A stretch of DNA of 28,327 bases from a virus: the IMG/VR virus record IMGVR_UViG_3300005914_000059, positions 1 through 28,327 of that record; one strand, 5' to 3'. The position numbers and the translations under genes are program-made. Positions 5,411 to 26,726 of this stretch are shown in pieces. The notes below the pieces were generated by a model, which saw only the letters and a list, made by a program, of their open reading frames with translations, made no database searches and was not told the DNA's origin. The number at the start of each line of letters is the position of its first letter. Position 1 is the stretch's first letter.

Positions 5411-8400
5411 ATGCCAGACTTAAAAGAGCTATTAACAGAAGCGCATAAAATGGGAGCAAGTCAAGCACAACTTGACACTATTGTAGAACGGTACAATCAA
5501 AAAAAAAGCGACGTTGGCAACGATTCACCCGATGCACCGAGTACCTTAAACTCATTTGGGGGTGGTTCAAATCCTTTCCAAAGTTCCCAAGTAGATACTG
5601 AAATACCAACGGTATTAAGTGAAAAGGCAAAGCTAGACAATATTCGTTCCAAGAATATTGCAGGTAAGTTCAAAGTAGATACACAACTACCCGAAAGCCA
5701 ATTAGGTTATCCAATAGGTAAAATAGGTAAAACTACTATTGATGTACCCTTAGAGAATAAAGTATTCAGAGAATTTGCTGCACCTACCATCCAAAGAGAA
5801 TTTGGGGTTGCCGATATAGACGTAACACAGAACAAGGTAGGTGAAAGCCTTACACGAAAGGGCGGTTTCCAAGACGACATACAGGCGACTGAATATGTGC
5901 CACAAGAACCAACACAAGAGGATGTAGGCTATTTAGAAAGCCTAAAAAACTCAATAACCAATGTTGGTGTTGGACTTCAACAGTTTATCCCTAATACACA
6001 AATTGCACTTGAAGGCACTCTTAAAACTTTATTAGGTAAAGATTTAGGTACTGACGCATATTGGCAACTAACAAAAGGCGATCCTGAATTACACAGAGCA
6101 GAATCCTATCAAAAATTAGCCGAATTAGAACCACAATTTAAGCAAACAAGGGGGTTAGTCGAAAGTGGTCAAAACTTTGATGTGTTTGGTCTTGCAGTAG
6201 CAACAGTAGACGCGGGGCTTTCTTTGGTTAGAACAATGGTTACATCAGTACCAACGGCAGGGTTAGGTTTATATTCTGATATGGTTGGTGGCAGTGTTGC
6301 TTCGTACAATCAAGAGAAAGCAAAGCAAATGGGCCTTAGTGTTAGGGAATTGTATGATAGAGGGGAGAATGACTTTGTTGTCCCTGCTACAATAGGTACA
6401 ATTGCTGCACAAATGGAGAAAATAGGATTGAAAGGTGTTAGTAATGCAATTAATAAAAAACTTGTTGGTAGTTGGCTTAAAAAAACCGCTGTATTTGGTG
6501 TAGAGGTAAATAAAGAAGGCTTAACCGAATTGGTTCAGACAGGATTAGATGAAGCAAATAAGTCATTAGCACAGGGTAAAGGTGCAGTACAATCAAGCAA
6601 GGATGCTGCCTCAGCTATGTTATCTAAGAAAGGTCTTGAAAGCTATTTAATGGGGGTTGTAGGGTCAGCAGGTGCAGCAGGTGCAGCAGGAGCGGGTAGG
6701 ATAGCCAAGTCTATGATAAGCCCTAAAGCTAAAGAAAAAGTTCAAGCGCAGACAGAAACTATTGAACGCTTAAAGACAGAGTTAGAAAACCCTAATTTAT
6801 CCCCTACTGCACAAGAGTTTGTTGCAGCTCAAATCCAAACATCGGTTGCTGATGTAGCCACAGAAGTTGAAACAGATGCAACACTTTACGAAAATCTAAG
6901 TACCGAGCAGAAGAAAGAAGCAGACAGGCTGAATGGCGAAATTGAAAAATCAGAAACCGTTATTAACGATCCTGCGCTCTCGGAAGAAACCAAAGCCGCT
7001 GCGGTAGTTGAGAACGAACGACTGAATACCGAATTAGAAGCTAAACTAAATGAGAAGTCTGCTGAAGTAAAAACTCCAAAAGTAGATACCCCCGCCAAGA
7101 CGGTAGACGTAGCTAAGGTAGCACCCATGTCTTATACCGAAGACTCGGCAGAACAAATAACAAATATAGTTAATAGCATACCAGATATTAAAACTACGGA
7201 GGGTTTACTTAATAGCACAAAAGGAACTCATTACGAGGCGTTAGCTAAAGCATTAGGCGGTTACCTACAAAATATAAAAACATCTATTGTACCCAAACTT
7301 ATAGATAAATTTGGTATTAGAGAACATGGCGGGCTGTTTGAAGACGGTGTAATAAAGCTAAAAAAAGGCGAAGGCATAACAACTTTTTTACATGAAGCAT
7401 TGCACGCTGTCACATCAGCTAAATTATTAGCCTGGACACGTTTTAATCAATTAAATAGATATAATTTAGAGGGTGGGAAACCACAACAATCATTTAAAGA
7501 ATTAGGATTGCATGATTTATCTAAAAAAGACATTGAGGCAATAAAAAACTTAGAAAGAATCTATGAAGAAAGTAAATTAAAAGCACATGAATTTTTAGGT
7601 GGTGGTAAAGCCGATAGAACTAAAGGGTTTTATGGTTTTACTAATATAGATGAATTTATTTCAGAGGCTTTTACTAGCAAAGAATTTCAAACTTTATTAA
7701 AAAATATAAAAGGAGAAGGTAAGACATCCAATTTATTTAAAGATTTTTTAGATAGTTTGGCTAAACTATTGGATATAAAAGACCCTACTATTTTAGATGA
7801 TATATTTTACCATACTGAAGTCTTGATGGATGGTAAAAAACAAACGCAAGTTAAAGACTCAGCAGAACAAATCACCAAAGAAGCTAAGCAAGCCGAAGCG
7901 GAGATGGCTAAGAACAATGACCCTGCTGAATTTGAGATTAAGATGGAGGCTTTGGATAAGCGGGCTCAGGCGTTGCCTAAAACAGGGGAAGTTATTTCTG
8001 AAATTAAAAATACAATTGAAGATGAACAAGCAATTACTATTTCGCCTAATGCGAAAGAATTACAATCCAAGGCTAACAACAATGAAGAATCGGTGGTACG
8101 TAACGAAGCTGGTACGACTAGCAATGCTACTGAAACCGTTACACGAGAAGTAAAACCAACTGCTGAGGTAGCAAAGCCAGAACGCACAGGCGATGCTACC
8201 GAGAACGAGATTAAGATGGAGGCTTTGGATAAGCGGGCTCAGGCGTTGCCTAAAACAGAAGCCGAGGTAGGAGCATTAAAAGATGTAGAGAGTACCGCTA
8301 AAGCATTGGATAGTGTTGAATTAGGTGATAAGTTTAAATCACAAGATACTGAAAGTGTATTAGATAGAAATAATTTTTATAGAAAAGCACAAGAAATGTT

Positions 8401-11400
8401 TGTAGAATCAAAAGGTTTAACAAATGACGAAGTGTTTAATAAAAATAAACAAAAAGGCGAGCTCACCACAGAAAAAGGCAGAATAGCATTTCAGAAAGAA
8501 TTTGAAAAGTGGACAGAAACAAATAAAAAACAAATTATTTCAGAAGCCTATCACTCCGACAAAGCATCGGGTAAAGAAACAGAACTAACCAAAGCAGTAG
8601 AATCCCTACTAAAAGAACAACCCACAGAACCCATACAATCTAAAGCAGAACAAACCACTCCTGCTGCTACTGCTGCTGCCCCTGCCACGACTGCAACAAC
8701 TGACCCTTTATTAAAAGCAGAAGATGACCTAAAATCTTTAAGTAAGTCAAGCGATAAGCAAACCAAATATGCAGCAAGCGTTAAGCGGTTAATCGAGGCT
8801 AAGAAAGATAGGCAGATCACAGAGAAAGAGTTCAATGATATGTTTAAGCGTTTTGGTGACGTGCTTGCTGCGGATAAGAAAGCAGGAGATATATTACGCA
8901 AGTTAGCTGATAAAATAGACCAAGGCAGGATTAACAAGCTAGGCGGTATGCGTGGCGGTACAGGTTACGACCTAATGTGGGATGGCTCACTTACCATTGC
9001 CTCCGCATCGTTGCGTGCAACCGCTGATATAGTGGATGTGTCTGTGCGCATAGCTATCGCAATAGAAGCAGGTCTTGCCCACGCCAGAAAATCTGATTGG
9101 TACAAGAGTTTAAACAATAAGCCTAAGTTCGAGGCCGCCTATACCGCCCATCTTGAGAAAGAGTTTGGTAAGCAATTAGCGGATGACGTGGTAACTCCTG
9201 AAAAAGAAACCCCAACGCAGGAAGCACCAACGCAAGAAGACCGCAAAGAGTTGAAACGTGCGGCAACCCAGCGCGCATTAGATTCAGACCAATACGGGCA
9301 AGGCTTCAAAGATGCGCTATCTTACAAAGCAATTCATTATACCGAGTTACCTAACCAAGTAACTGAGCAGGAAGCTGAGGCGCTTATAGAGATACAAGGC
9401 GAAGTGGGTATAGAACGAGATTTGTATGATTTCAATAACGGAATGCCTAGTGCGGTCAGGTTCTCTGTGCTTCAGAAATTAATCGACATCTACGAGGCCA
9501 AAGGGGATAATTTGAAGGCGGGCGAACTTGCCGAGGAGTTATACTCCAAGGCTACCGATTATGGGCAGGGTATTCAGATTTTCTCGACCTTTCCAAAACT
9601 TTCCAAAGCCACTAACGTCGCTATAGCCAGAAAGACTGTAAAGACCAACAGAGATGTCGTAGCTAAACGTGCTAAGCCCACTACCGACAAGCTGACCAAA
9701 GAGTTCAAGAAAGCGAATAAAGAAGCCGCAGAGGAAACGGTAGAGGCTGTAAAGAAGTCCATAGGCAAAGCTACCCTTCAGAAAGGAGCTTCGCTGACAG
9801 ACCTCCCTCTAGGGTACGGTATGAAAAATAAGGTGTTCACTCGGGCTAAGTATTTGAAGGCTAAACAAAATCTACGAGGGGCTACTTTCTCTTTTGCAGG
9901 GGGTATCCCTATTGAGGATTTAGTGAACATTGCAGGGTACCACATCGAAGCTACCGGAAAAGACTTTACTAAGTTCACAAGGCGGATGAAAGCTGACTTG
10001 GGGGCAAAGATTAAACCTTATTTAAAGGATATCTATGCGAAGTCCAGAGAATCGCTCATCGAAGGTGGGTACGATCCTGCGTTGTTCTTAACCGATGAGC
10101 AAGTGGCCGAGCAGATAAATGCCGAAGATGGGCAAGTGTATAAAGAGAAGTTAGACAAAGCTATCAAGCGCAAATCTGCCAAAGAGCAGAAGCAAGCCAT
10201 CGCCAAACTGCAACAGATAAGCAAAGAGGAAGGACTATGGGGGCAGTACAGCAATAGTGCTGCCAGCAGGCTGAAGAGTATGGTTAAACCTAATATCCAA
10301 GCCGATATAGCAGGGCAACCCTCTTTGCAGCAATTCACAGACGGACTTGTCCGCAACATGAAGCAGAAGATGGCTGAGTCCATGCCTGAGCAGACTAAGA
10401 AAAGGGCTGCTCCTCGCTCAGCTATCGACATCATAGGCGATGCGTACAGTAATTTTGAGAAGTACAAAGACGTATGGGTCAAAACCCAAAAAGAGTTTCA
10501 AGAGGAGTTCGCCGACCAACCTGAGATACTAGAGGCTATAGACGCTTATTTCGGAGAGATTCTGGAAACTCCTTTCTCAGATCGAGTGTTAGAGTCTGCG
10601 GTGCGTAAAGGTTTGAAAGATATGGATAAGACCATAACCGACCTTGTTGTGCAACACTACACCCTCGTTGACCATGCTAGAGAGTCTTTATCCGATAAGC
10701 TAGTTAACGAAGCTGGGCTATCAGGCGCCGAGGCTAAGCAGCTCGCCTATGAAATAGAGCGTAAGTTTGACGAGATAGCTACTAAAAAGAAGCAACAGAT
10801 ATTGGAGCGCATGTTTTCAGCCAAGACCAAAAGGACACCGCAAGGGAAAGCCTTGGAAGATGGTATTGTGAAAATGACCAACTTGGGTGGGTTCTCCAAC
10901 GCTGACATCGTGGAGATGTATGCTGAGAAAATGGGGTGGCCTAAACTCACCCAAGAAAACATAGCAGAAATTGAATTGTTATCCGACATCATCCAAAATA
11001 CTAAAGACCCTATTAACCGCAGACGTGCTACAGAAGATTTGCTCGCCTACCAAGCTAATCTAAAGGGTATATCCGCTTTAGATATGGCCACCGCTATATG
11101 GTACGCTAACGTACTATCGGGGTATAACACTCAGATAATAAACATAGGAGCTAACGCTATAAACACGTCACTTCTATATGCTAATGCCGTTGCGCAGAAT
11201 CCTACTAATGCCGCTTTCATCGGCAGAGGATTGATGCAGGGGTTGAAACGAGGATGGCTAGAGAGCAAAGATACTTTGCGAACCGGATATAGCCCTATAA
11301 AGGGTAAACCTGAGATACCGTCTCTCCTTGAGCGTATGGATTTCAAAGGAGGGCAGTGGAACCCCGCGAACTACTTAAAGCATGTTAGGCGTGTTATGGT

Positions 11401-13255
11401 AGCGGCAGACGTTTTGTTTTTTGAAGGGCAGAAAGAAATGAGGGCTTACCAAATGGCTATGAAACAGGCTATGCGGGAAGGGAAAGACGTACCAACCTTA
11501 GACCAACAGAACAGGGCTATCGAGTTAGTGGGTAGAAGTGCGGGTCAGCTTCAAGCTATCCAAGATAAATACCAAGCTGAATATGCTGAGGATTTAGAGC
11601 GTATAGAGGGGCAGGATGAATTAACTCCTGCGGAGAAGAAAGAGCTGTTAGGCATTTTAAAGGCGGATACACAGCGTAAGATATTCGATGCAGTAGAAAG
11701 GCAACGTAGCGCAGAGATGGTGGAAGACGCAGTGAAGTATGCCTCAGAAGGTACTTACAACTACCAACCTAAAGGCACACTAGGGGCAGTGGCCAATTTC
11801 ATAAATCAGTTGGTACAAGACGTGCCAATTCTGAGATACGCAGTGCCTTTTACGAACATAATTGCCAATGTGGCTAATGAGACTATAAATTACACCCCTT
11901 TGGCTTTTACAAGGTTGAACAGAGGTGGGTGGAGTAAATTTCGCAGAGACACGCTGTCTCAGCAGGACCGAGCCGATTTAATGACCAAGGCGATTATAGG
12001 CACTACTTTGATGGTGACACTCATGGCTCTTTCCCAATCGGGCGAGGATGACGAACCTATAATCGAAATAACAGCTAACGGAACGGGGGATTACGCTAAA
12101 AACGAAACTTTGAAGTTAGGAGGCTGGCACCCTTATTCTTTTAGGATCAAACTGCCTTCGGGTAATTACTCGCCTTGGTATTCCTACCAATACTCCCCGT
12201 TAATGGCATCGCTGGGGTTCGTAGGCCACTTTAACGACTTGCAGAAATATAAAGGTGGGGATAGCGAGTTGGGGGTTGTGGCTAGACTCAGTGCCGCTGC
12301 CGGACTGACTGCGACTTCTATTTTCCAAGCCACGTTTCTAACAGGTGTGGGTGATATGTTAGCGGCTTTGCTCGACCCTAGGAGCAGCGAAGGTCTAATT
12401 GATAAAATGGCGAGAGGGGCGGTCAATGCAGCTAGGGGTGTCGCTATACCTAATTTACTTACTCAAACATCTCAAGACTTGGAGCGCATATTTGACGTGC
12501 CTAAGAAAGAGACGCGACCCGTTAAAGATGGCACGGTAAGCGATTACGCCAAGAGTTTGATAGCTAGAACGGTACAAGACGCTCCCTATGCTCGGAATAT
12601 GTACTATGATAAAATTAACATCTTAGGAGATCCTATTCTGTACGATACAGATAAATTTGAATCAGCGAATATACCTAATAGAATAATCGAACTGTTAGTC
12701 GATAAGAAAGCAGTGTTTGCCCCTATGAGCCGGAACGAGCAGAAGATTTACGACGTAGATAAAGAAGTGGAACGTGCGCTCAACGATCAAGAGTTCTACG
12801 AATACGCCAAGGTAAAAGGTGCTTTCATAAAGAACGCCCTTACGGAAGGATACAAAGATGGGGGTAAGACCTACCTGTACGAAGACTTCACTAAAATGAG
12901 TGAGGACAAGTTCAAGAGTGTACTATCTAAAATAAAAAGGAATGCAACGCTAGAAGCCAAAGCCAGTACAGGTGGTGTGCCGAGCGAAGTAATGACTATC
13001 CAAGAAGATATAGATAATGAATGGCAGTTATCGCCCAAACAAATAAAAGAGCGTATACGTTTAAACAAAGAATACGTAGAGAATAATGAGTCTATTCTAA
13101 TAACCGATACTGAAGCCTATATTAGAGAGGAGGGGCTTACACCTGCACAGGCTAGAGCCAAGGCACTCAAAGATTTATGGCGCGAGGCGAATAGCAAATC
13201 TAAGGACATTCTACTAGCAGACCCTACTTTTAAAGAAAACGCAACTATTAAATAA
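5411..13255 (+). CDS. Giant polyvalent internal virion protein (2614 aa) with HExxH metallopeptidase module
   Basis: This 2614-residue protein is by far the largest in the window and starts 3 nt after the previous gene. Visible parts, in order: a helical N-terminus (residues 1-35); hydrophobic Ala/Gly segments around 257-300 and 411-432; an HExxH metallopeptidase-like module at about 578-822 with HEALH at 661-665 and a downstream DEFISEAF (E748/E752) as likely third-ligand region; low-complexity Lys/Glu-rich linkers to about 1110; helical domains; and a C-terminal half with YANVLSGYNTQIINIGANAIN, RYAVPFTNIIANVANET and a membrane-like helix near 2194-2212. This modular build fits the large polyvalent proteins of phages, which are packaged and injected with the DNA. 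The C-terminal part resembles polyvalent-associated domains of short-tailed phages. A T7 gp16-like channel role is inferred. Confidence 0.75.
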   Translation: MPDLKELLTEAHKMGASQAQLDTIVERYNQKKSDVGNDSPDAPSTLNSFGGGSNPFQSSQVDTEIPTVLSEKAKLDNIRSKNIAGKFKVDTQLPESQLGYPIGKIGKTTIDVPLENKVFREFAAPTIQREFGVADIDVTQNKVGESLTRKGGFQDDIQATEYVPQEPTQEDVGYLESLKNSITNVGVGLQQFIPNTQIALEGTLKTLLGKDLGTDAYWQLTKGDPELHRAESYQKLAELEPQFKQTRGLVESGQNFDVFGLAVATVDAGLSLVRTMVTSVPTAGLGLYSDMVGGSVASYNQEKAKQMGLSVRELYDRGENDFVVPATIGTIAAQMEKIGLKGVSNAINKKLVGSWLKKTAVFGVEVNKEGLTELVQTGLDEANKSLAQGKGAVQSSKDAASAMLSKKGLESYLMGVVGSAGAAGAAGAGRIAKSMISPKAKEKVQAQTETIERLKTELENPNLSPTAQEFVAAQIQTSVADVATEVETDATLYENLSTEQKKEADRLNGEIEKSETVINDPALSEETKAAAVVENERLNTELEAKLNEKSAEVKTPKVDTPAKTVDVAKVAPMSYTEDSAEQITNIVNSIPDIKTTEGLLNSTKGTHYEALAKALGGYLQNIKTSIVPKLIDKFGIREHGGLFEDGVIKLKKGEGITTFLHEALHAVTSAKLLAWTRFNQLNRYNLEGGKPQQSFKELGLHDLSKKDIEAIKNLERIYEESKLKAHEFLGGGKADRTKGFYGFTNIDEFISEAFTSKEFQTLLKNIKGEGKTSNLFKDFLDSLAKLLDIKDPTILDDIFYHTEVLMDGKKQTQVKDSAEQITKEAKQAEAEMAKNNDPAEFEIKMEALDKRAQALPKTGEVISEIKNTIEDEQAITISPNAKELQSKANNNEESVVRNEAGTTSNATETVTREVKPTAEVAKPERTGDATENEIKMEALDKRAQALPKTEAEVGALKDVESTAKALDSVELGDKFKSQDTESVLDRNNFYRKAQEMFVESKGLTNDEVFNKNKQKGELTTEKGRIAFQKEFEKWTETNKKQIISEAYHSDKASGKETELTKAVESLLKEQPTEPIQSKAEQTTPAATAAAPATTATTDPLLKAEDDLKSLSKSSDKQTKYAASVKRLIEAKKDRQITEKEFNDMFKRFGDVLAADKKAGDILRKLADKIDQGRINKLGGMRGGTGYDLMWDGSLTIASASLRATADIVDVSVRIAIAIEAGLAHARKSDWYKSLNNKPKFEAAYTAHLEKEFGKQLADDVVTPEKETPTQEAPTQEDRKELKRAATQRALDSDQYGQGFKDALSYKAIHYTELPNQVTEQEAEALIEIQGEVGIERDLYDFNNGMPSAVRFSVLQKLIDIYEAKGDNLKAGELAEELYSKATDYGQGIQIFSTFPKLSKATNVAIARKTVKTNRDVVAKRAKPTTDKLTKEFKKANKEAAEETVEAVKKSIGKATLQKGASLTDLPLGYGMKNKVFTRAKYLKAKQNLRGATFSFAGGIPIEDLVNIAGYHIEATGKDFTKFTRRMKADLGAKIKPYLKDIYAKSRESLIEGGYDPALFLTDEQVAEQINAEDGQVYKEKLDKAIKRKSAKEQKQAIAKLQQISKEEGLWGQYSNSAASRLKSMVKPNIQADIAGQPSLQQFTDGLVRNMKQKMAESMPEQTKKRAAPRSAIDIIGDAYSNFEKYKDVWVKTQKEFQEEFADQPEILEAIDAYFGEILETPFSDRVLESAVRKGLKDMDKTITDLVVQHYTLVDHARESLSDKLVNEAGLSGAEAKQLAYEIERKFDEIATKKKQQILERMFSAKTKRTPQGKALEDGIVKMTNLGGFSNADIVEMYAEKMGWPKLTQENIAEIELLSDIIQNTKDPINRRRATEDLLAYQANLKGISALDMATAIWYANVLSGYNTQIINIGANAINTSLLYANAVAQNPTNAAFIGRGLMQGLKRGWLESKDTLRTGYSPIKGKPEIPSLLERMDFKGGQWNPANYLKHVRRVMVAADVLFFEGQKEMRAYQMAMKQAMREGKDVPTLDQQNRAIELVGRSAGQLQAIQDKYQAEYAEDLERIEGQDELTPAEKKELLGILKADTQRKIFDAVERQRSAEMVEDAVKYASEGTYNYQPKGTLGAVANFINQLVQDVPILRYAVPFTNIIANVANETINYTPLAFTRLNRGGWSKFRRDTLSQQDRADLMTKAIIGTTLMVTLMALSQSGEDDEPIIEITANGTGDYAKNETLKLGGWHPYSFRIKLPSGNYSPWYSYQYSPLMASLGFVGHFNDLQKYKGGDSELGVVARLSAAAGLTATSIFQATFLTGVGDMLAALLDPRSSEGLIDKMARGAVNAARGVAIPNLLTQTSQDLERIFDVPKKETRPVKDGTVSDYAKSLIARTVQDAPYARNMYYDKINILGDPILYDTDKFESANIPNRIIELLVDKKAVFAPMSRNEQKIYDVDKEVERALNDQEFYEYAKVKGAFIKNALTEGYKDGGKTYLYEDFTKMSEDKFKSVLSKIKRNATLEAKASTGGVPSEVMTIQEDIDNEWQLSPKQIKERIRLNKEYVENNESILITDTEAYIREEGLTPAQARAKALKDLWREANSKSKDILLADPTFKENATIK
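7142..7879 (+). other. Metallopeptidase module inside the giant protein, bounded by duplicated DSAEQIT
   Basis: Residues 578-584 and 816-822 of the giant protein both read DSAEQIT. At DNA level the copies begin at 7142 and 7856, exactly 714 nt (238 codons) apart and almost identical over 23 nt. The HEALH motif and the downstream Glu-rich helix lie between them. The segment looks richer in A and T than the regions beyond 8750. This is the pattern expected if the peptidase domain was gained or exchanged as a unit by recombination between short repeats, but an internal duplication of a linker would look similar. Confidence 0.5.
7934..7985 (+). repeat. Exact 52-bp direct repeat, copy 1
   Basis: Identical over 52 nt to 8207-8258, in the same frame, encoding EIKMEALDKRAQALPKT in both. 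The copies start 273 nt (91 codons) apart in a linker of the giant protein, just after the metallopeptidase module. Exact identity at the DNA level points to recent duplication or conversion. Confidence 0.95.
8207..8258 (+). repeat. Exact 52-bp direct repeat, copy 2
   Basis: Second copy of the repeat at 7934-7985. After it the sequences diverge into GEVISE (copy 1) and EAEVGA (copy 2). Recombination between copies would delete 91 codons without a frameshift. Confidence 0.95.
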
Positions 13256-24747: not shown

Positions 24748-25389
24748 TTAGCTGTTTATCCAATCGTTCCAATCATTCTGATCATTCCGATCATCCGTTA
24801 GTACTTCCTCGGCACACCTTAGTATGTGTAAACCCATTTCTGGCACTACGCAATTACGCAACACTTTTCGTTTATCTATGCCTGTGTAGCTGTCCAAGTC
24901 GAAGCCTAGTTTTTCAGATAGAAACTTCCTCTCTTCAGGTTTTTTGCAAGTTTCTAACTTCTCGAACTCCATAGGCTCTATGTGGAAATTACACCAAATG
25001 GCGTGCCGGTGTAGTATTGTACTCGGCTTTATCAAAGGGGCGTAGTAAGGTATTACATTCTCAATTACCCACAATCCTTTATACCACTTTTGCAATAGGA
25101 TTATCTCGGCGTACAAAGTCATATCGGGGTAAACGATTACTTTATTCATTGTCCGTAACCTACTATGTGTAGGGCAAGGAGGAGATGCCCAAATAATATC
25201 AAACTCTTTAAAGTGGTCTAGTAGGTATTGGTGGGCGTCCCCTACAATTACAGTATCGTTTGGGAAGTGCTCTTTGTATATAGCTGCTATATTAGGGTCG
25301 TACTCTACGGCTGTAATTTCGTACCCGTCACCCCATAGTTTTCTGTTACCCCCTATTCCTGCGTATAGATTCAGTATTTTCTTTTTCAT
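24748..25389 (-). CDS. C5-cytosine DNA methyltransferase, short form
   Basis: A 213-residue methyltransferase. Motif I is LNLYAGIGGNRKLW (6-19), motif IV contains SPPC with catalytic C72, and motif VI is IENV (109-112). A late motif RNCVVPEMG acts like motif X. It lacks a long target recognition domain, so specificity may be minimal or come from a partner. The C-terminus has a repetitive tail DDRNDQNDWNDWINS, whose DNA recurs at the end of the neighbouring 443-codon frame. It probably protects phage DNA from restriction; no cognate nuclease is visible. Confidence 0.8.
   Translation of the reverse strand: MKKKILNLYAGIGGNRKLWGDGYEITAVEYDPNIAAIYKEHFPNDTVIVGDAHQYLLDHFKEFDIIWASPPCPTHSRLRTMNKVIVYPDMTLYAEIILLQKWYKGLWVIENVIPYYAPLIKPSTILHRHAIWCNFHIEPMEFEKLETCKKPEERKFLSEKLGFDLDSYTGIDKRKVLRNCVVPEMGLHILRCAEEVLTDDRNDQNDWNDWINS
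24760..24776. repeat. Short repeat shared by adjacent 3' ends, copy 1
   Basis: CCAATCGTTCCAATCAT, identical to 25407-25423. It encodes the WNDW part of the C-terminal tail. Confidence 0.85.
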
Positions 25390-25394
25390 CTTCT

Positions 25395-26726
25395 TTAATT
25401 ATCTACCCAATCGTTCCAATCATCCGTTAACAAATTCGTTCCACTCTTTTGCTTTTCGCCACAAGTCCCAGAAGGCAAGTTCGGCGGTTTGTTCGACCAC
25501 TGAGTTGCCAATGGCACGGTGAAGATCCTCTGTAAAGTTGTACCCATTAATTGAATACTCCACGCTGGATTCAACCGTGCGGGGCTCTTCCCATTCGTGC
25601 TGATAAATTCCTTGACCTGCGGGAAATCGGTGTTCATAACGACAGCATTCGGTAGCTGACTGAGGTGTGGCCTTTCCTTTGAGTCGAAATGTTCCTGCGA
25701 GTTCGCCCCCTTGTAGTCTCTGGTTGCTGGTGTCGGCCAATTCTTCATCTCTCCGTACACTGCTGCATCCCTCATATTTGAGAAGCTGCTCCTGCCCGGT
25801 CTTGTTTCGTTCATCTCCTTGTCTATCGCTTTGTCCGTCTTTGGGGGCAGTTGATCCATCGTTGTTGGTGTTGGCCAATTCTTCGCTGCATTGCTCAGTC
25901 CTTGCTGTTTGCTCTTGGCACTCCTTCTGTCTGAGCAATCTGGTGTTGGCCAATTCAGTGCTTGGTGAGTCAGAGATGTATTTTTCTTCATTCCGTCTGC
26001 CGTGTAATAAGCAGTCCCTTTCCACACCCATCCTAACTCTTTTGCTCTCTCCGGTGATATCTCTCCTTGTTGTGTTGTCGCAGGGGTCGCCCAGTTCAAA
26101 ACCTTGCTGTTCAAGTCTATCGTCCATCCCTTCTCCTCTTTGCGTTGGTAATTTCCCGACTCTGGTAGGTCTAGGCTCCGGAAGTCCCGGCTCTGCGGAG
26201 TTGGCCACCCTAATTGCGAGGATGAACAATCTTTCCCGCCGTTGAGGAGCGCCAATTTCTTCCGCTGAGTATATTCCTGCCTCAACGAAGTAGTCCATTT
26301 CTTCCAGTTCACGTTTAACCACGTCGAACCCGAGTGTAAGGTGACCTGCGACATTCTCAAAGAAACACCATCCGGGTTTAATAGTTCTGACGTGTTCTCG
26401 AATGAAGGGCCACAGGTGACGTGGGTCATTTTCTCCTGCTCGGTTACCAGCCAGGGAAAATGGCTGACAAGGGTATCCGCCAATAATTCCATCAATGAGT
26501 CCTCGAAACGGTTCCGGATTGAAGGTTTTAAGATTCGTCCAGATAGGTGCTGGAGCCACCAGACCCGCTTCCATTGCAGCAAGAAGGTTTTCCACGATAA
26601 AGGCTTCGATTTCCACATAAGCACAGGCTCTAACTTCTCGAAATATTCTTTCAAGTCCTCTTTCGATTCCACGTATTCCGGGGCATAGACTGATGATAAC
26701 GGGTGATTGTTTGGTAAAATCCACAT
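25395..26726 (-). CDS. Overprinted 443-aa frame, WPTP/LNPxW-LMG type
   Basis: An ATG frame that begins right after the upstream stop (26727-26729) and runs through the whole methyltransferase gene in another frame. Motifs: WPTP at 174-177, 259-262, 284-287 and 330-333; WATP at 212-215; TMDQLPPK at 288-295; RPGRS at 309-313; HLSQLPNAV at 354-362; LNPAW at 385-389 and LMG at 393-395. From memory this set (WPTP ... LPPK ... RPGRS ... LNPxWVExLMG) marks a phage protein family found with C5-methyltransferases. The first 150 residues look like a shadow of the enzyme. Its C-terminal WNDW tail matches the in-frame tail of the next gene. Translation is unproven. Confidence 0.45.
   Translation of the reverse strand: MWILPNNHPLSSVYAPEYVESKEDLKEYFEKLEPVLMWKSKPLSWKTFLLQWKRVWWLQHLSGRILKPSIRNRFEDSLMELLADTLVSHFPWLVTEQEKMTHVTCGPSFENTSELLNPDGVSLRMSQVTLHSGSTWLNVNWKKWTTSLRQEYTQRKKLALLNGGKDCSSSQLGWPTPQSRDFRSLDLPESGNYQRKEEKGWTIDLNSKVLNWATPATTQQGEISPERAKELGWVWKGTAYYTADGMKKNTSLTHQALNWPTPDCSDRRSAKSKQQGLSNAAKNWPTPTTMDQLPPKTDKAIDKEMNETRPGRSSFSNMRDAAVYGEMKNWPTPATRDYKGANSQEHFDSKERPHLSQLPNAVVMNTDFPQVKEFISTNGKSPARLNPAWSIQLMGTTLQRIFTVPLATQWSNKPPNLPSGTCGEKQKSGTNLLTDDWNDWVDN
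25407..25423. repeat. Short repeat shared by adjacent 3' ends, copy 2
   Basis: Second copy of 24760-24776. Here it lies at the end of the 443-codon frame (DDWNDWVDN) and mostly past the stop of the large methyltransferase. Confidence 0.85.
25420..26724 (-). CDS. C5-cytosine DNA methyltransferase (Dcm-type)
   Basis: A 434-residue methyltransferase with a GTG start at 26724 (no nearby in-frame upstream start). Motif I is SLCPGIRGIERGLERI (12-27), unusual because the normal F-G-G core is CPGIRG. Motif IV GGYPCQPFSLAG has catalytic C86; motif VI FFENV (121-125); motif VIII QRRERLFILA (161-170); motif X HRAIGNSVVEQTAELAF (402-418). Between 171 and 401 lies a polar, repeat-containing target-recognition region with recurring VAN, LANT, LADT elements. 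It is probably an anti-restriction or host-mimicking enzyme. The same DNA carries a second long frame (25395-26726). The upstream gene ends 3 nt away. Confidence 0.88.
   Translation of the reverse strand: MDFTKQSPVIISLCPGIRGIERGLERIFREVRACAYVEIEAFIVENLLAAMEAGLVAPAPIWTNLKTFNPEPFRGLIDGIIGGYPCQPFSLAGNRAGENDPRHLWPFIREHVRTIKPGWCFFENVAGHLTLGFDVVKRELEEMDYFVEAGIYSAEEIGAPQRRERLFILAIRVANSAEPGLPEPRPTRVGKLPTQRGEGMDDRLEQQGFELGDPCDNTTRRDITGESKRVRMGVERDCLLHGRRNEEKYISDSPSTELANTRLLRQKECQEQTARTEQCSEELANTNNDGSTAPKDGQSDRQGDERNKTGQEQLLKYEGCSSVRRDEELADTSNQRLQGGELAGTFRLKGKATPQSATECCRYEHRFPAGQGIYQHEWEEPRTVESSVEYSINGYNFTEDLHRAIGNSVVEQTAELAFWDLWRKAKEWNEFVNG

Follow-up and report, generated by a model that had tools for sequence, protein, structure and literature searches.

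Two reading frames of more than 400 codons lie over each other, on the same strand, in one methyltransferase gene of the window analysed here, a viral DNA of 28,327 nucleotides (IMG/VR record IMGVR_UViG_3300005914_000059). Long same-strand overlapping genes in bacteria and phages are usually suspected to be artefacts. The locus raises the question of whether the second frame encodes a protein and, if so, whether that protein belongs to the methyltransferase.

Layout of the two frames and their start region

The 434-codon frame encodes a C5-methyltransferase catalytic domain with motifs I, IV (PCQ), VI (ENV), VIII and X (Pfam PF00145, E 5.2e-30). It lies wholly within the span of the 443-codon second frame. 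The first-pass annotation had described both frames on one strand, and on re-check their coordinates and lengths were exact. The features that it had listed for the 443-codon frame (five W(P/A)TP motifs, LPPK, RPGRS and LNPAW...LMG) were all found, and the next ATG does begin 5 nt beyond the end of this frame. The WNDW tail common to the 443-codon frame and the next gene is real at the DNA level, with TTAACGGATGAT...TGGAACGATTGG at both 3' ends. Within the first gene, this DNA is read in the 443-codon frame only. The two tails look like a small duplication, and the copy in the next gene carries an 18-bp insertion compared with the 443-frame tail. The next gene itself (24748-25389, minus strand) encodes a short second C5-methyltransferase-like protein of 213 aa (Pfam E 3.4e-9), whose match is limited to the N-terminal third of the Pfam family. 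Elsewhere in the window, a plus-strand ORF of 2614 aa (5411-13255) had no PHROG match at E 0.001.

Table 1. Features of the overlapping methyltransferase locus (window coordinates)
Feature	Positions	Strand	Remarks
443-aa second frame (beta-like subunit)	25395..26726	-	ATG start; one base forward of the 434 frame
434-aa C5-methyltransferase frame (alpha-like subunit)	25420..26724	-	GTG start; Pfam DNA_methylase E 5.2e-30
ATGTG, in which the two starts overlap (443 frame, ATG; 434 frame, GTG)	26722..26726	-	
434 frame, catalytic motifs I-VIII (residues 9-172)	26209..26700	-	AF2, Foldseek, constrained frame
443 frame, N-terminal half overprinted on motifs I-VIII	26208..26726	-	MWI-P start conserved
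443 frame, five WPTP/WATP modules (residues 174-384)	25575..26207	-	Putative target-recognition modules
443 frame, motif IX region ARLNPAWSIQLMG (residues 383-397)	25536..25580	-	Profile match
434 frame, residues 176-365: disorder predicted, without a recognition domain	25630..26199	-	AF2 pLDDT <50
434 frame, motif X (GNSVVEQTAEL) and C-terminal helix	25426..25533	-	
443 frame, 3' tail (LTDDWNDWVDN)	25395..25430	-	DNA common to the tail of the next gene (24748-24800)

The overlapping starts recur among viral relatives, as ATGTGG in 50 loci, GTGTGG in 6 and TTGTGG in 3. A Shine-Dalgarno-like stretch precedes the starts in 46 of 59 viral loci. No such stretch was found upstream of the window's ATGTG, a lack that would be compatible with a host that makes no use of these sites. 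The alphaproteobacterial examples shown have a start of the form ATGCATGACCTGG, with two ATGs four bases apart. The N-terminus of the second protein is MW(I/L)xP in most relatives.

Openness of the second frame in the window and its relatives

The openness of each frame was compared with chance by 20,000 synonymous-codon permutations of one frame, in which its protein was kept fixed and the stops were counted in the other frame. With the 434-aa protein fixed, the second frame acquired a mean of 9.9 stops (minimum 3). With the 443-aa protein fixed, the methyltransferase frame acquired a mean of 17.3 stops (minimum 6). None of the 20,000 permutations was open in either direction. Neither frame accounts for the openness of the other.

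The frame pair also recurs in other genomes of phages and prophages, well over a hundred in all. Two scans of viral contigs, one by the second frame and one by the methyltransferase, yielded 160 loci, many of which were common to both. All loci found via the second frame had the methyltransferase frame, in constant phase, and the majority of those found via the methyltransferase had the second frame. A scan of bacterial genomes, with at least 330 candidates, gave 80 further loci, which came chiefly from Alphaproteobacteria and Burkholderiales, with a few from Chloroflexi, Planctomycetes and others. After the removal of duplicates, 132 viral or phage loci and 79 genome loci were analysed; their HMM-based selection favours well-conserved cases. 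In 97 of the 132 viral loci and in 73 of the 76 genome loci counted, the open stretch of the second frame began ahead of the first residue conserved in the methyltransferase. Every second-frame ORF checked in phage, plasmid and genome loci (87/87) was in the constant phase. The outcome that had been proposed as a refutation, namely that relatives keep only the 434-codon frame, was looked for, and the homologues hold both frames open. The window and most of the loci here have the co-extensive form.

A test of openness on pairs selected for the overlap is circular by construction, and loci seeded by the methyltransferase were used in its place. In 39 such loci, chosen without regard to the second frame, we counted stops by region. 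In the +1 frame, 10 stops were seen against 134 expected over motifs I-VIII, and 12 against 80 between motifs VIII and X. Beyond motif X, in the part in which the second frame comes to an end, there were 46 against 26 expected. The control +2 frame was near expectation in the same loci (275 vs. 279 over I-VIII; 339 vs. 370 over VIII-X). Across all 79 seeded loci, the +1 frame had 170 stops against 508 expected, and the +2 frame 1289 against 1275.

If codon bias or a scarcity of stops had produced the second frame as an artefact, the 192-codon antisense frame that is also open in the window would be in keeping with it, and the first-pass annotation had urged caution on this ground. The antisense frame was not retained in the two closest relatives, where its longest runs were 118 and 79 codons, and the caution was dropped. 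The artefact also does not agree with the absence of a single open permutation, nor with the maintenance of the second frame in many divergent loci in which the +2 frame behaves as expected. Comparative stop counts and permutations together ruled out the stop-poor artefact, to which we assign virtually no probability. The pair recurs in constant relative phase at about 130 viral loci and 79 bacterial ones, and this excludes both chance and low stop density.

Selection and the division of motifs between the frames

Codon-position rates were determined from blastn pairs picked without reference to frame. Over motifs I-VIII, the fastest codon position was position 3 of the methyltransferase frame (0.40 in viral loci, 0.33 in genomes). 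For the recognition region, the highest rate was that of second-frame position 3 (0.29 viral, 0.30 genomes), and methyltransferase position 3 was slow (0.14 viral, 0.11 genomes). At motif VIII, constraint passes from one frame to the other: it falls on the methyltransferase frame over I-VIII and on the 443-codon frame between VIII and X. The rates of flanking ORFs were discarded as controls, being contaminated by spurious antisense ORFs. Related WPTP modules had a mean identity of 0.52 in the second frame, 0.26 in the methyltransferase frame and 0.29 in the third frame; these pairs were chosen on second-frame similarity, and the frame-neutral blastn pairs are the unbiased test.

Across motifs I-VIII, protein conservation in the second frame modestly exceeded the level imposed by the methyltransferase. 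This excess was larger than that of the +2 control frame at every divergence level, with z values that are descriptive, the pairs being non-independent. The N-terminal half of the 443-aa protein is conserved weakly. Judged for dual coding, selection on the second frame was strong in the WPTP and motif IX region and weak over I-VIII. The first-pass annotation had proposed that the target-recognition region is dual-coding, a case of overprinting. Dual coding held up, and it spans the whole gene from the start codon instead of being confined to that region. The second frame likewise stood, and protein-level selection in the recognition region acts on the 443-codon frame, not on the methyltransferase frame. 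Given this selection, the 443-aa product is most likely an enzyme subunit and not an unrelated overprinted protein.

The catalytic motifs of the methyltransferase frame were invariant in the alignment of relatives. AF2 modelled the 434-aa protein with a pLDDT of about 90-97 across most of residues 9-172 (the catalytic domain). Residues 176-365 had a pLDDT below 50, indicating disorder, and the C-terminal helix of motif X was confident. By Foldseek, the model matched M.HhaI/M.HaeIII over the catalytic part only (about 170 columns, E 4e-14). No motif IX-like stretch was seen in the methyltransferase frame of 40 aligned relatives. The 434-codon frame is predicted to be without a folded target-recognition domain of its own, and it has no recognisable motif IX.

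The 443-aa protein matched phrog_1008, which is labelled DNA methyltransferase, over residues 79-218 (E 3.5e-16). It had no match among the Pfam, NCBIfam and PADLOC models, and a sequence search of the PDB returned nothing meaningful. Its LNPxWVxxLMGxPxGW region resembles motif IX of in-frame C5-methyltransferases (profile-profile probability 94, E 1.2e-7), the comparison being made with related methyltransferases that have IX in frame with motif X. The window's own motif IX region diverges from the consensus beyond LMG. The AF2 model of the 443-aa protein alone was poor (pLDDT 59.5, pTM 0.29), with no fold match in the PDB by Foldseek; this might fit a subunit that folds with its partner. The recognition region consists of units that begin with W(P/A/x)TP, have a median length of 35 aa and number 0-7 per gene. 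The fourth unit of the window (TMDQLPPK...RPGRS) recurs in 15 other loci at differing positions in the gene. This recurrence suggests that the units may be exchangeable recognition elements.

Some relatives divide the motifs differently. In three loci (L011, L013 and L041), the first frame ends after motif VIII, and IX and X lie together in the second. The second frame therefore supplies parts of the enzyme. In others (L021, L073/L111 and L138), stops break the methyltransferase frame between VIII and X, the second frame is open and motif X is unlinked from I-VIII. These loci are possibly broken genes, cases of recoding or a third arrangement. In a further set (L152, L155 and L160), motif IX lies in the methyltransferase frame, yet the +1 frame, closed across the N-terminal half, contains LPTP repeats in the stretch from VIII to IX. 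These are possibly an intermediate form.

Readings of the locus and comparison with known systems

We consider it likely that overlapping same-strand frames at this locus encode the two polypeptides of a single C5-cytosine DNA methyltransferase, an enzyme of the M.EcoHK31I type. The alpha polypeptide (434 aa) would contribute motif X and, with motifs I-VIII, the domain for SAM binding and catalysis; the beta polypeptide (443 aa) would contribute motif IX and, as WPTP units, the modules for target recognition. Both would be translated from one initiation region, in which the ATG of beta and the GTG of alpha are two bases apart, and would assemble. Each WPTP unit may then serve as an element of recognition that can be exchanged for another. 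The likely use of the enzyme is to mark phage DNA against host restriction. With slightly more doubt than confidence, we further propose a widespread phage and prophage gene class in which two full-length same-strand frames with near-joint starts encode two subunits. In such genes, the choice of start codon would set the subunit ratio, the second-frame modules would be shuffled while the first frame merely stays open beneath them, and the N-terminal half of beta would have been born by overprinting on the catalytic domain.

Two other readings were weighed. The second frame might encode an unrelated overprinted protein, e.g., a regulator or an anti-defence protein, which merely uses the methyltransferase gene. 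The lack of a Pfam or NCBIfam family for the 443-codon frame, the lack of a known relative for its N-terminal half and the poor solo model are all compatible with this. We nevertheless regard it as unlikely, in view of the C5-methyltransferase motif IX that the 443-codon frame has and the 434-codon frame does not, of motif X in the second frame at some loci, and of the presence in phrog_1008 of the second gene of split mycobacteriophage methylases. Alternatively, two programmed frameshifts, one of +1 after motif VIII into the WPTP/IX frame and one back before motif X, could produce a single fused enzyme. The switch of the constrained frame at motif VIII agrees with such a scheme, as do the actinophage relatives that carry LLPTP repeats, IX and X in a single frame and the few loci whose methyltransferase frame is interrupted between VIII and X. 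However, frameshifting has no need for a second frame that is open over I-VIII (10 vs. 134 stops) with a conserved start, nor for a methyltransferase frame that is open between VIII and X, and two shifts per gene would be costly. We hold it to be very unlikely.

The two-polypeptide reading bears on how these genes are annotated. In the Synechococcus phages Ssp-JY39 (L004) and Yong-M2-251 (L168), the second-frame protein is identical over the stretch of the methyltransferase gene, and the annotations are opposite: Ssp-JY39 is annotated in the second frame (as a hypothetical protein) and Yong-M2-251 in the methyltransferase frame. Since gene callers choose one frame or the other, many recorded phage methyltransferases are probably half-annotated. 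The annotated frame, if expressed alone, is expected to yield an inactive enzyme. Here, two frames of more than 400 codons stay open across a large and divergent set of genomes, and the constrained frame switches within the gene. The system makes overprinting directly testable by a simple methylation assay.

Pairs of the nested kind already carry annotations in some phages (K1H and K1ind1), and the principle is therefore known. No description of the co-extensive arrangement was found in the open-access literature searched, and the full-length co-initiating form, its breadth and the swappable recognition modules appear to be undescribed there. The nested methyltransferase genes of the Escherichia phages K1H (gp32/gp33) and K1ind1 and of the Xanthomonas phage PhiXhv-5 resemble the window in having WPTP and LNPxxxxWLMG in the inner frame, and both frames are annotated. 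K1H has the same +1 phase as the window, and its gp33 belongs to phrog_1008. Unlike the frames of the window, which start together, the inner frame of K1H starts 88 nt inside the outer gene and encodes a shorter protein of 230 aa.

A split of a C5-methyltransferase after motif VIII is shared with M.AquI and with the split methylases of mycobacteriophages. Mycobacterium phage Charm is an example, in which genes 80/79 overlap partially and the product of gene 79 falls into phrog_1008. In the M.AquI type, the second polypeptide holds motif IX as well as motif X and the overlap is partial, whereas motif X of the window is on the first polypeptide. The three loci with IX and X in the second frame (L011, L013 and L041) are nearer to the M.AquI type. 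A single-frame form also exists, in which LLPTP repeats, IX and X occur together (Mycobacterium phage prophiGD91-2 gp27 and Gordonia phage Phinally gp5). The multispecific C5-methyltransferases of the SP-beta group carry tandem exchangeable recognition units of about 40 aa. The WPTP units are similar in being tandem and putatively exchangeable and in their size (median 35 aa in the window's family). They differ in lying in the second frame, whereas those of the SP-beta group are in frame in one polypeptide.

A close parallel is M.EcoHK31I. Its small polypeptide is encoded in another frame inside the gene of the large one, and the second polypeptide of the window is likewise encoded in another frame of the same DNA. 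M.EcoHK31I is a two-polypeptide C5-methyltransferase for YGGCCR, with motifs I-VIII and X on the large polypeptide and IX on the small one, and its predicted TRD was placed on the large polypeptide (PMC3404938). The window shows the same division, in that IX alone is separated from motifs I-VIII and X. In contrast to M.EcoHK31I, the second polypeptide of the window is 443 aa long, is co-extensive with the first and starts two bases ahead of it, and the recognition region, to judge from the constrained frame between VIII and X, is apparently on this second polypeptide and not on the one with motifs I-VIII.
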